Below, one piece after another: positions 2,926 through 8,852 of a stretch of DNA of 64,000 nt (positions are counted from its first letter, which is position 1; every line of letters begins with the position of its first letter). The DNA lies in NCBI RefSeq assembly GCF_000266905.1, contig NC_018027.1, forward strand, positions 248,001 to 312,000, read 5' to 3'. The translations under genes and the position numbers were made by a program. This DNA is from Mycolicibacterium chubuense NBB4 (GTDB lineage Bacteria; Actinomycetota; Actinomycetes; Mycobacteriales; Mycobacteriaceae). The notes under the pieces were generated by a model. The model ran no database searches and had not been told where the DNA came from. It worked only from the letters and a program-made list of their open reading frames with translations.

Positions 2926-2941
2926 GTAGGGTGTGGTGGAG

Positions 2942-4078
2942 ATGAGGCGACTACTCGCATCGGTCACGGCGCTGATAACCGTTGGTATGACAGGCGGATT
3001 CGGCCTGGGCGTCGCGACCGCGGATGACGGCACGACCCCGCCGGGTCCCGGTGCCACCACCGACGGGCCCCCGCCGATCGGGACACCGGGGCGGGGGTAC
3101 GCGCTCGGCGGCGCTCACGTGCTGGGCATCCCGTACGACGAATACATCATGCGCACGGGCGCGGACTGGTTCCCCGGGCTGAAGCGGCAGATCGTCGACT
3201 ATCCCGCCGGGCAGGTCCAGGGGCACACCCTGGAACGGCTGTTCCCGGGGATCGGCGAGCTCGACAAGTCCCTTCCCGGTCTCGGTATGGACGGGCCCAG
3301 CATCGGCGAGTCCGTCGACGTCGGAACCCCGAACGTGATCAACGCGGTCCGCGACGGCGGCCGGGGCACCGCGATCGGCCTGTCCGAGGGTGCGATGGTG
3401 CTCAACGACGTCAAGGCCAAACTGGCGTACGACCCGGCCGCGCCGCCGCCGGACCAGTTGAGCTTCGCCATGTACGGCGACCCGGTGGGGAGGCACGCTT
3501 TCGGGGAGAGCTTCCTGACGCAGAACTTCCCCGTCGGCAGCGTCGTGCCCGCGCTCGACTACCGGATCCCGCCGCCGGTGGAGAGCCAGTACGACACCTA
3601 CGAGTTCGTCTCCGCCTACGACAGCATCGCCGACTGGCCGGACCGGCCGGACAACTGGATGTCCATCGCCAACGCGATCGTCGGCCTCGCCACCGGGCAC
3701 ACCGCGGTGGCGTTCACCAAGCCGAGCAACGTGCCGCCGCAGAACATCAGGACGACGGTCAACTCCCGCGGCGCGAAGACGACGACCTACATGATCCCCG
3801 AGGAGCACCTCCCCCTGGTGCTGCCGTTCAAGTATCTCGGGGTGCCCAAGGAGACGCTGACCAAGCTCGACGCGGTCCTGAAGCCCTATGTGGACGCGGG
3901 ATATTCGCGCAACGACGACCCGCGGACCGCTCCGGTCACGGTGGACCCGAACCGGGGTTACGACCCCGCGGCGGTCACGGCGCCGGCCACGCAGGCCGCG
4001 TTCGGTGGCGGCGCCGATCCGGTGTCGCAGCTGCTTGCCGGTATGCAGTACGTGCTGAACCACCAGCCCAAGCCGTAG
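2942..4078 (+). CDS. Secreted PE-PPE domain acyltransferase/hydrolase-like protein
   Basis: 378 residues from ATG 2942 (GTG 2933 in frame is the alternative). The N-terminus has a signal peptide ([15 protein letters not shown]...TADD) followed by a Pro/Gly-rich linker. The body resembles the PE-PPE (PF08237-type) alpha/beta-hydrolase domain found in Chp1/Chp2 (Rv3822, Rv1184c), which transfer acyl chains between trehalose esters outside the membrane. The stretch [20 protein letters not shown] is in the position of the nucleophile elbow (S in GLSEGA). Gene order after mmpL and FAAL mirrors the PE gene of the trehalose polyphleate locus. A role in the final acyl transfer is inferred from family and context. 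Confidence 0.75.
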
Positions 4079-4084
4079 CCGCCG

Positions 4085-5366
<1,282 letters not shown>

Positions 5367-5665: not shown

Positions 5666-7420
5666 TCAGGGCCGCATCTCGTACGCGCCGTCGTAGGCGC
5701 GCACCTGCTCCCACACCCTGCCGAAACGGGCCGGGTCCGCCACCGGTTTGCGGACGGCCGACAGCGCCCACGCCTGCTGTGCCGACGTGGAGCTGGGCTT
5801 GCCGTGCAGTGCGACCGCGTAGCCCGAGAAGTCGCGGACCTGCACGTCGAAGATCTGGTCGACCAGCTCAGGTGCGAGGCCGGTCAGCTCGGCCTGTTCG
5901 AGGATCAGCTGACCGTAGACCACGAGGGAGAACAGGTGGCCCACGACGAGGACGAAGTCGAGGTCGGCCTGCTGATCGGAGTCGGGGGCCGCGGTGGCCA
6001 GTAGCTCCTTGAACGCCTGCACCTGCTCGTAGAAGCGCCCGACGTTCGCGATGCCGGTGTTCCTCTCGTAGACCGGAGCCCAGTCTGCGAAGCGCACCTT
6101 CGAGGCGCCGCGGGCTGGCCCCTGCGACCAGAAGAACACGTCGTCGGCGGGGTCGTCGCGGGTGCCGATCGGCGGGTACTCGGCGGGGCTGAACATGAAG
6201 TTCGGCATGAACTTCAGGATCTGCGCGACGTTGACGTGCACCGTGCCCTCCAGGCGTGGCAGTGCTCCGATCAGACGTGCGACCTGGCTGAAGTACGTGT
6301 TCTTCTCGAAACCCTTGGCGGCCAGCACATCCCACAGCAGCGTGACGACCTTCTCGCCTTCGGAGGTCACCTTCGACTTCGTCACCGGGTTGAACAGCAG
6401 GTAGCGGCGGTCCTCGGGGCTCGCGCTGCGGAAGTAGTCGATGGCGCGGTCGCTGAAGAGCTTCATCGCGATCAGCCGGGCGTACGCGTCGACGAAGCTC
6501 GCCCGGACGTGCGGGAAGTCCGTGACCGGCTTGCCGTACAGGATGCGATTGTTCGCGTGGGTGATCGACTCGTAGAAGGCGTGCTCGCACATGCCGATCG
6601 AGCCGCTGCACAGGTTGAACTTGCCGACGTTGACGGTGTTCAGCGCCGCCGAGAACGCCTCGGGCCCTGTGCAGAGGATGTCTTCCTCGTGCACCGGGTA
6701 GTCGTGGAGCGCGAAGTTGCTGACGAACATCTGGCCGTGCACGACATTGCCGATCAGCTCGTAGTTCTCGTGACCGCTGTCGGCGACGAACCACACGTAG
6801 CCGTCGGCGCCCTCGACGTCGGCGCGGCGTCCGAACACCGACACCATGCCGGCCACGTTGCCGTTGCCGATGTAGTACTTCTCGCCGGACGCCCGGAACA
6901 CGACGCCCTCGGCGTCGTCTGCGGTGGCCGGGGTGAGCAGCATGTCGGTGTCGTAGATGTCGGCGCCGTGCTCGCGCTCGGAAAGCCCGAACGCCATGAC
7001 CCCGCCGGCCTCGAGCTGCGCGGCCGCCTTCTCCTTGGCCTTGACGTTGTCGCTCTGCCAGATGGGGCCGAGCCCGAGGATGGTGACCTGCTCGGCGTAC
7101 CAGTAGGAGAGGCCGTAGAACCCGAGGATCTCGCTCAGCACGGCGTTGCGGGACGTGTCCCACCGCCTGTTCGCATCACCGCCGGCGAACTCCGACGGGG
7201 TGAGGAAGGTGGCGAACAGCCGCTCTCGGTTCACGAACTCGAGGAAGTCGCCCACCCACTCGGCGTCCAGGTCGTCGCGCAGCAGACGCGTCTTTCCACG
7301 CTGCTCGAACCACTCGATCAGGGCGCGCAGGAGACGCCGCGATTCGGGATCGAGGCGCTGCGGATCGAACGTGTTCGGGTTCAGCAGCAATCCGGTGGAA
7401 TTCGGCAGGGAATTCGGCAT
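5666..7420 (-). CDS. Acyl-CoA dehydrogenase family flavoprotein (long form)
   Basis: 584 residues, longer than the ~380 of simple FadE enzymes. The middle holds acyl-CoA dehydrogenase blocks: MAFGLSEREHGAD, FRASGEKYYIGNGN and FGRRADVEGADGYVWFV in the beta domain, then the helical region with CSGSIGMCEHAFYESITHA. Expected role is FAD-dependent oxidation of an acyl-CoA thioester; substrate unknown. Although Rv0244c (fadE5) lies near sdh in M. tuberculosis, the N-terminus here (MPNSLPNSTGLLLNP) does not resemble what I recall of FadE5. Start ATG 7420 lies inside a cluster of GCCGAATTCC repeats. It follows the cysteine-repeat gene by 60 bp on the same strand. Confidence 0.8.
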   Translation of the reverse strand: MPNSLPNSTGLLLNPNTFDPQRLDPESRRLLRALIEWFEQRGKTRLLRDDLDAEWVGDFLEFVNRERLFATFLTPSEFAGGDANRRWDTSRNAVLSEILGFYGLSYWYAEQVTILGLGPIWQSDNVKAKEKAAAQLEAGGVMAFGLSEREHGADIYDTDMLLTPATADDAEGVVFRASGEKYYIGNGNVAGMVSVFGRRADVEGADGYVWFVADSGHENYELIGNVVHGQMFVSNFALHDYPVHEEDILCTGPEAFSAALNTVNVGKFNLCSGSIGMCEHAFYESITHANNRILYGKPVTDFPHVRASFVDAYARLIAMKLFSDRAIDYFRSASPEDRRYLLFNPVTKSKVTSEGEKVVTLLWDVLAAKGFEKNTYFSQVARLIGALPRLEGTVHVNVAQILKFMPNFMFSPAEYPPIGTRDDPADDVFFWSQGPARGASKVRFADWAPVYERNTGIANVGRFYEQVQAFKELLATAAPDSDQQADLDFVLVVGHLFSLVVYGQLILEQAELTGLAPELVDQIFDVQVRDFSGYAVALHGKPSSTSAQQAWALSAVRKPVADPARFGRVWEQVRAYDGAYEMRP

Positions 7421-7480: not shown

Positions 7481-7957
7481 TCAGCCACGCCCGATTCGCA
7501 CGTTACGCAGGCCGACGGTGTTGCGGAGGCCCGAGCAGTTGACGCAACCGACGCAGCCGATGCAGTCCTGGCAGTTCACACAGCCCACGCAAGCCTTACA
7601 CCCCGTGCAGGAGACACAGGCCAGACAGGCCACGCAGCAGCGGCAGGCGATGGACAACACCATCAGGATGCATCCGGCGACCGCGGCGCTACCGGCCGTG
7701 GCGATCGACCCCGCGACCGCGGCGCTGCCCGCGGTGGCGATCGAGCGAGCGACGGCCGCGCTGCCCGCGGTCGCAACGGACCCCACCACCCCCGCGCTGC
7801 CAGCGGTGGCGATCGACCCGGCGACCACGGCGCTGCCGTTCGTGGCGATCGATCGGGCGACGACGGCGCTGTCGATCGTCGAGATCGACCGCGCAACCGC
7901 GCGACTGTTCTCCGTGCCGGGAGAACGGACGACAGCTCGCGCGTCGTCGTTCGTCAT
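7481..7957 (-). CDS. Hexapeptide-repeat protein with a C-terminal Cys-x-x ladder
   Basis: 158 residues from ATG 7957 (an in-frame GTG at 8002 gives 173). Residues 18-155 are 23 six-residue units in one unbroken register. Units 1-13 (18-95) alternate SAAVAG-type and SIATAG-type hexamers, i.e. 12-residue pairs. From residue 96 the first position becomes Cys, and from 108 to 141 there are twelve Cys at exactly three-residue spacing (units such as CVACLA, CVSCTG, CVNCQD, CIGCVG). The last units are LRNTVG and LRNVRI. There is no signal peptide; 90-105 is hydrophobic. The periodicity suggests a parallel beta-solenoid with stacked cysteines that could bind metal or be disulfide linked. I do not recognise a characterised family. 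It lies 139 bp after sdhB on the same strand. Confidence 0.68.
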   Translation of the reverse strand: MTNDDARAVVRSPGTENSRAVARSISTIDSAVVARSIATNGSAVVAGSIATAGSAGVVGSVATAGSAAVARSIATAGSAAVAGSIATAGSAAVAGCILMVLSIACRCCVACLACVSCTGCKACVGCVNCQDCIGCVGCVNCSGLRNTVGLRNVRIGRG

Positions 7958-7972
7958 CGCGCCAGCACGCAG

Positions 7973-8104
7973 GCGCTCATCGCCATTTTCTGTCCCCTGC
8001 ACTTCGTGCGGGGCCCCACTTCGCGCAAGCGCTCATCGCCATTTTCTGCTCTTCGCGCAAGCGCTCATCGCCATTTTCTGCTCTTCGCGCAGGCGCTCAT
8101 CGCC
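7973..8104 (-). repeat. 32-bp direct repeats between sdhB and the cysteine-repeat gene
   Basis: The core gcgctcatcgccattttctg occurs at 7973, 8029 and 8061, with a truncated copy at 8093. Copies at 8029, 8061 and 8093 are exactly 32 bp apart; the 7973 copy is separated by 56 bp because a GC-rich insert (gtcccctgcacttcgtgc) interrupts it. On the minus strand each unit reads ATGGCGATGAGCGC, so units carry both ATG and overlapping ATGA. The truncated copy contains the sdhB stop codon. This is reminiscent of mycobacterial interspersed repetitive units, which also carry overlapping start/stop signals between operon genes, but identity with MIRU is not claimed. Confidence 0.85.
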
Positions 8105-8852
8105 GACGGAACAGTTTGTCTCCCAACCACACCACCGGGTCGTACTTGCGGTCGGCCACCCGTTCCTTCATCGGGATCAGCGCGTTGTCGGTGATCTTGA
8201 TGTGTTCCGGACACACCTCGGTGCAGCACTTGTTGATGTTGCAGTAGCCCAGGCCGTGCACCTCCTGGGCATCCTCGGCGCGCCGGGGATGGACGTCGAG
8301 GGGATGCATGTCCAACTCGGCCATCCGCATCAGATACCGCGGCCCCGCGTACGCCTCCTTGTTCTCCTCGTGGTCACGGATGACGTGGCAGACGTTCTGG
8401 CACAGGAAGCACTCGATGCACTTGCGGAACTCCTGGCTGCGGTTCACGTCCTCCTGCTGCATCCGGTACTCGCCGGGCTGCAGGTCCTTCGGTGGCGTGA
8501 ACGACGGGATCTCCCGTGCCTTCTCGTAGTTGAAGCTGACGTCGGTGACGAGGTCGCGCATCACCGGGAACGTCCGCAGCGGGGTGACGGTGACGGTCTC
8601 GTCCTCGCCGAACGTCGACATCCGAGTCATGCACATCAGCCGCGGCCGGCCGTTGATCTCGGCCGAGCACGACCCGCACTTGCCGGCCTTGCAGTTCCAC
8701 CGCACAGCGAGGTCGCCGGCCTGGGTCTGCTGCAGGCGGTGGATGATGTCGAGCACCACCTCGCCCTCGTTGACCTCGACGGCGTAGTCCTTGAGCTCTC
8801 CGCCGGCCGCGTCGCCCCGCCACACCCGCATCTTCGCTTCATAGGCACCCAT
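8097..8852 (-). CDS. sdhB: Succinate dehydrogenase iron-sulfur subunit (Sdh1 type)
   Basis: 251 residues. Passes electrons from the flavoprotein to the membrane quinone site through three Fe-S centres. The [2Fe-2S] ligands are C54, C59, C62 and C74; the second cluster region has CIECFLCQNVC and the third CNINKCCTEVCPEH. Length and sequence fit the Rv0247c-type subunit. It starts 3 bp after the sdhA stop, which indicates tight coupling. Its stop codon lies inside the last copy of a 32-bp repeat array. Confidence 0.93.
   Translation of the reverse strand: MGAYEAKMRVWRGDAAGGELKDYAVEVNEGEVVLDIIHRLQQTQAGDLAVRWNCKAGKCGSCSAEINGRPRLMCMTRMSTFGEDETVTVTPLRTFPVMRDLVTDVSFNYEKAREIPSFTPPKDLQPGEYRMQQEDVNRSQEFRKCIECFLCQNVCHVIRDHEENKEAYAGPRYLMRMAELDMHPLDVHPRRAEDAQEVHGLGYCNINKCCTEVCPEHIKITDNALIPMKERVADRKYDPVVWLGDKLFRRR

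Follow-up and report, generated by a model that had tools for sequence, protein, structure and literature searches.

The window analyzed in this study, a stretch of 64,000 nucleotides of the Mycolicibacterium chubuense NBB4 genome (NC_018027.1, positions 248,001 to 312,000), contains a gene downstream of sdhB for a small protein, in which a regular repeat ends in a ladder of cysteine residues spaced by three. This protein, termed the ladder protein, is real and unusual, has no family model, and probably belongs to a known type of fold. It may be a cytoplasmic beta-solenoid with 12 residues per coil, of the type of the Tenebrio molitor antifreeze protein (TmAFP), in which a core of twelve thiols would bind a soft metal. 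We give this explanation a probability of roughly 0.42.

Repeat and cysteine ladder

Residues 18-155 of the ladder protein consist of 23 hexads, which keep a single register exactly, as the sequence-only reading of this DNA had claimed. Position 1 of the hexads reads SSSSSSSSSSSSSCSCCCCCCLL and position 4 reads VTVTVTVTVTVTVMCCCCCCCTV. The protein contains 15 Cys residues, of which 13 form an unbroken run at a spacing of three (105 to 141), C96 is in register, and C107 is out of register. The sequence-only reading had counted twelve Cys at this spacing; the window copy has 13 consecutive ones, and twelve is the usual core of the family. The switch from Ser to Cys that it placed at unit 14 is not clean, because unit 15 starts with Ser again. 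The last two hexads start with Leu and lie outside the ladder. The Cys run never exceeds 6 when the whole protein is shuffled 200,000 times, and never exceeds 9 when residues 96-143 are shuffled as many times.

When 78 sequences of the family are compared, every third residue is nearly fixed: it is S, T, S and V in turn along the shaft, and Cys in the twelve positions of the ladder. The shaft consensus is S-x-A-T-A-G-S-A-A-V-A-G. Alternation of T and V between hexads is observed in 909 of 955 scored pairs from 93 distinct open reading frames (104 frames, from which 11 were dropped; three have no scorable run). In the same 93 frames, the Cys run is 12 residues long in 56, 13 or 14 in 22, and 7 to 11 in 15. 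A closing block, 12 residues long, comes after the ladder; it commonly has L, A, L or A, and V at a spacing of three, is where many members end, and holds the spacing more loosely than the shaft and the ladder do. The content of D, E, K and R is 1.7% in the shaft, 10.6% in the Cys coils and 23.4% in the closing coil, and 31 of the 78 shafts contain no charged residue at all, His included. A shaft composed of uncharged Ala, Gly, Ser, Val and Thr in this way would likely associate with its own kind.

Selection on the reading frame

The ladder-protein family represents a real gene under purifying selection. For the last 44 codons of 24 sequences (the window copy and 23 loci from congeneric genomes), pN/pS is 0.31, pN is smaller than pS in all 276 pairs, and no stop codon is found. 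The other five frames of this region give ratios of 0.53 to 1.79, and between 6 and 14 of the 24 sequences carry stops in them. The Cys codons themselves vary in this set (197 TGC and 67 TGT). For the repeat part, pN/pS is 0.55 and pN is smaller than pS in 217 of 231 pairs from 22 sequences, two loci (L050 and L051) being excluded because they are short or frame-broken. In support of the sequence-only reading, the register is kept in homologues, and selection points to a real protein.

The family is probably missed by many annotations, because a search of 5.8 billion proteins yields 14 relatives among the best 7,994 candidates scored, as compared to 234 loci in genomes, and because, among the regions listed, the frame preferred by a simple gene caller is an opposing one in about 10 of 24.

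Conservation of the cysteine residues

In the ladder region, 971 of 974 Cys residues are in phase. Four of the twelve ladder positions are occupied by Cys in 78 of 78 sequences, and another five in 77 of them. C105, which precedes the twelve, occurs in 22 of 78 sequences, none has Cys at position 99, and the residues of the transition coil are freely exchanged among members. If the T and V positions of the shaft correspond to C2 and C8 of TmAFP, the natural disulfides would be, by analogy, C111-C117, C123-C129 and C135-C141. However, C111 is absent in 10 of 78 sequences and C117 in none, and C141 is absent in 12 of 78 and C135 in none. Because the partners of a disulfide should be lost together, this asymmetric loss favors free or metal-bound thiols over disulfides of the TmAFP type. 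Inspection of the family N-termini by eye reveals no hydrophobic signal, suggesting that the protein is located in the reducing cytosol. The mycobacterial cytosol is reducing.

In the proposed mechanism, the ladder protein is probably cytoplasmic, and its fixed residues would face inward. The last three coils would provide a core of twelve thiols, which would be closed by the hydrophobic coil. These thiols would stay reduced and most likely bind a soft metal, for example Cu(I) or Zn(II), which they would store or buffer, and the uncharged shaft may self-associate. Soft-metal binding by the Cys coils is tentatively regarded, from sequence, as the leading function. It is more doubtful that the twelve thiols form a buried rod in which soft metals are bound as a chain. 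The protein would then be a metallothionein with a solenoid fold, or even a thiolate metal wire, carried by a shaft that assembles. The axial spacing of a beta-solenoid, about 4.7 angstrom, would give the spacing of the thiols along this rod. If the Cys core does bind metal, it would represent a new architecture for metal storage, and protein design could use it as a scaffold for metal rods.

Fold

Structure prediction gives a solenoid, in agreement with the sequence-only reading, with strands at residues 20-28, 32-40 and 44-52. TmAFP (1ezg) is the best VIA match of two predicted models, and a solenoid fold of the TmAFP type is considered probable. A Foldseek search yields no match at an E value of 0.001 or below, and a sequence search of PDB yields only two chance-like rows and does not recover TmAFP. 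The earlier idea that a Ser/Thr face turns into a Cys face has to be revised, because in a 12-residue coil of the TmAFP type with one fixed residue in three, Ser, Thr and Cys more likely form the core than an outer face. The phase of conservation in the sequence agrees with the out-in-out-out pattern given in PMC8038014, which also describes core disulfides in beetle antifreeze proteins. A left-handed hexapeptide beta-helix of the LpxA type is not indicated: at E values up to 1, 52 members match 11 Pfam families, none of which is a hexapeptide family, and the NCBIfam LpxD models are matched by one member each, at 0.17 and 0.24. A left-handed helix with 18 residues is disfavored, because it does not suit a 12-residue alternation.

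Distribution of the family

A scan of 84,980 species genomes yields 234 loci, and the counts out of 80 given below refer to the best 80 of them. The taxa among these 80 are Mycolicibacterium, Mycobacterium, Pseudonocardia, Actinomycetospora and actinobacterial bins. The family as a whole is found in Mycobacteriaceae, including many environmental mycobacteria, in Pseudonocardia and Actinomycetospora, and in a few other Actinomycetota. In a sample of the genus of the window, 111 of 248 genomes pass an E value of 1e-6, a few of them weakly. In a class-wide sample, 21 of 394 genomes pass, of which 12 are convincing and all belong to this same genus. Clear ladders occur outside the class in two genomes (L154 and L156), and a more distant group, known from database proteins only, carries a ladder of eight Cys. 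The weak matches at L024, L025, L026, L029, L162 and L163 and in nine rows of the class-wide sample are judged to be low-complexity look-alikes and not members.

Some copies deserve separate mention. A bin labelled Bifidobacterium breve (L121) contains a mycobacterium-like copy with its neighbors, probably by contamination. One genome (G032) carries two clearly different copies (L009 and L027), and the copy of another (G015; L028 and L051) is split across two frames, by gene breakage or assembly error. In the distant relatives P0018, P0021 and P0023, the frame continues into a sequence that resembles VOC/glyoxalase by eye, as a real fusion or an overlap.

No Pfam or NCBIfam model describes the family when the window protein and 52 members are scanned. 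The matches in these scans, to collagen, HxsA4 and collagen-like adhesins, are weak or apparently compositional; collagen is matched by 15 of 52 members (best E value 1.2e-6). No plasmid or phage record is found for the window protein, and no relative is found in viral contigs scanned with the distant relative P0016 only. A protein search with the ladder alone gives 12 candidates and no match. Searches of a library of open-licence papers turned up no description of such a protein among the papers listed, which in one search were 15 of 83.

Genomic neighborhood

The features of the locus are listed in Table 1. The sequence-only reading noted the location after succinate dehydrogenase. This location holds in one clade (22 of 80 loci), and other clades differ. 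The order in this clade is sdhC-sdhA-sdhB and the ladder gene, mostly followed by the acyl-CoA dehydrogenase-like gene. A possible start codon lies -4 to +15 nucleotides from the sdhB stop in 18 of 23 sdh-linked loci, the window included, suggesting that the ladder gene is probably read there as part of the sdh operon. At the window locus, the gap between sdhB and the ladder gene is longer, at 139 nucleotides, and holds 32-bp repeats, the 20-base core of which occurs three times in the whole genome, always at this locus.

In 27 congeneric genomes, which were chosen because their ladder copy is elsewhere (15) or absent (12), tblastn detects neither the ladder gene nor the dehydrogenase-like gene within 1.5 kb of sdhB; in three of the 30 loci, the motif used does not anchor the sdhB stop. 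Of 23 genomes that carry the ladder gene, 19 have the dehydrogenase-like gene, as do 7 of 12 that lack the ladder gene, so that the dehydrogenase-like gene is not a strict partner. Other neighbors, named by eye, are an MmpL-like gene (20 of 80 loci), an SDR oxidoreductase gene (15) and peptide ABC transporter genes (7), and the remaining loci adjoin other genes. The family tree groups the copies by genomic place (7 changes against 30.7 when shuffled; 96 columns, weakly resolved). The ladder gene follows the SDR oxidoreductase gene at L045-L048 and L050 and precedes it at L032-L035, suggesting that it either reached this place repeatedly or shifted locally.

Elsewhere in the window (2933-4840), a PE-PPE acyltransferase gene (NF041570) adjoins a Sap/SfLAP membrane protein gene (PF11139). 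A gene upstream of them resembles that of a fatty-acyl-AMP ligase by eye, so that this region may be a glycolipid locus beside the sdh operon.

Table 1. Features of the ladder-gene locus (positions in the window)
Feature	Position	Strand	Remarks
Whole ladder gene	7481..7957	minus	158 residues; ATG at 7957, stop at 7481-7483; in-frame GTG at 8002
Variable N-terminal stretch	7889..7957	minus	residues 1-23; no hydrophobic signal-like segment by eye
Shaft	7673..7888	minus	residues 24-95, six 12-residue coils; S-T-S-V at every third residue; almost uncharged
Transition coil	7637..7672	minus	residues 96-107; register residues C96, M99, S102, C105
Three Cys coils	7529..7636	minus	residues 108-143; four register Cys per coil
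Closing coil	7493..7528	minus	residues 144-155; register L-T-L-V in the window copy; common family form LRNAVGLRDVHA
sdhB, iron-sulfur subunit	8097..8852	minus	upstream neighbor; NF009052
Acyl-CoA dehydrogenase-like gene	5666..7420	minus	downstream neighbor; PF00441
32-bp direct repeats	7963..8114		located between sdhB and the ladder gene; four units that resemble the reference copy by 66-100%

Alternative explanations

Some results qualify the evidence for the solenoid and for this frame. In phase, the closing block shows no higher conservation (entropy of 0.99 versus 0.71 and 1.12). The T/V alternation supports a 12-residue coil but does not prove it, since the sequences compared are related and thus not statistically independent, and since the repeats may multiply through 36-bp duplication. 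The control by other frames is weaker for the repeat part, where one of the antisense frames gives a pN/pS of 0.63 (216 of 231 pairs, stops in 1 of 22 sequences), nearly as good as the coding frame, so that the proof of coding rests mainly on the ladder and the tail. This antisense frame and the long plus-strand open frames at the locus would be expected if the ladder gene were a chance open frame opposite another gene, but this explanation is hardly credible and is disfavored, given the stops and the higher pN/pS in the other frames of the ladder and tail. It is also very unlikely that the protein serves succinate dehydrogenase, as an Fe-S or electron-transfer component encoded in the same operon. 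The possible starts near the sdhB stop and the clustering of the linkage on the family tree would fit such a role, but a role tied to sdhB is disfavored by the restriction of the linkage to one clade, by copies that adjoin other genes in other clades, and by the 27 chosen congeneric genomes with no ladder gene beside sdhB. A precursor of a ribosomally synthesized and post-translationally modified peptide, with the ladder as its core peptide, is slightly less probable still. Its C-terminal part is short and rich in Cys, and 15 of 52 members weakly match the HxsA4 model (best E value 0.002), but this match looks compositional, like those to collagen, and no recurring neighbor cluster is seen in the contexts viewed, in which the neighbors were not scanned for maturases.

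Two explanations retain the solenoid and differ in the role of its thiols. The Cys residues may be small core residues that stack well and have no chemistry of their own. This passive role is unlikely, because nine of the twelve positions are nearly invariant, whereas S, T and V serve in the shaft and the transition coil varies freely, although adjacent conserved Cys residues with no disulfides are reported for Knotted Solenoid structures in PMC13123833. Somewhat less unlikely, but still rather doubtful, is a redox cap, in which the Cys coils lock the end of a self-assembling solenoid and core disulfides or thiol switching stabilize or release this end. Cys is not lost jointly from positions that would oppose each other in a TmAFP-like arrangement, no signal peptide is apparent by eye, and the cytosol is reducing, which argues against this cap. 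However, the Cys coils adjoin an almost uncharged shaft at its C-terminal end, beetle antifreeze proteins have core disulfides, and fungal ice nucleators are reported in PMC13288671 and PMC12978214 to have a solenoid end capped by disulfides. If a redox cap is correct, the ladder protein would represent a bacterial, possibly intracellular, version of the capping principle described for fungal ice nucleators in PMC13288671.

Comparison with known systems

MymT, the mycobacterial metallothionein, is small and Cys-rich like the ladder protein, but it is not known to be a repeat solenoid. No metallothionein family of Pfam or NCBIfam is matched by the window protein or the 52 members. The Knotted Solenoid proteins resemble the ladder protein in that they are bacterial solenoids with close, conserved Cys residues and no disulfide seen, but differ in that Phe, followed by Cys three residues on, is located at the coil starts and the fold is knotted, according to PMC13123833. 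The fungal ice-nucleating proteins are beta-solenoids with Cys residues clustered near the C-terminal end, like the ladder protein, but these are six, with two more at the start, and form no unbroken ladder; these proteins also have an ice-nucleating surface and a demonstrated dependence on disulfides, as described in PMC13288671 and PMC12978214. TmAFP, which has a 12-residue unit, one inward residue in three and an inner Ser ladder according to PMC8038014 and PMC3196904, shares the unit with the ladder protein, in which the fixed residues would correspond to the inward ones. The beetle consensus TCTxSxNCxxAx has Cys at positions 2 and 8 of each coil, whereas the shaft consensus of the ladder protein contains no Cys and has T and V where TmAFP has its disulfide pair. 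The outward TxT array, by which the beetle proteins bind ice, has no counterpart in this consensus, in which Thr sits in the fixed phase. Unlike TmAFP, the ladder protein is bacterial and ends with four Cys residues per coil.
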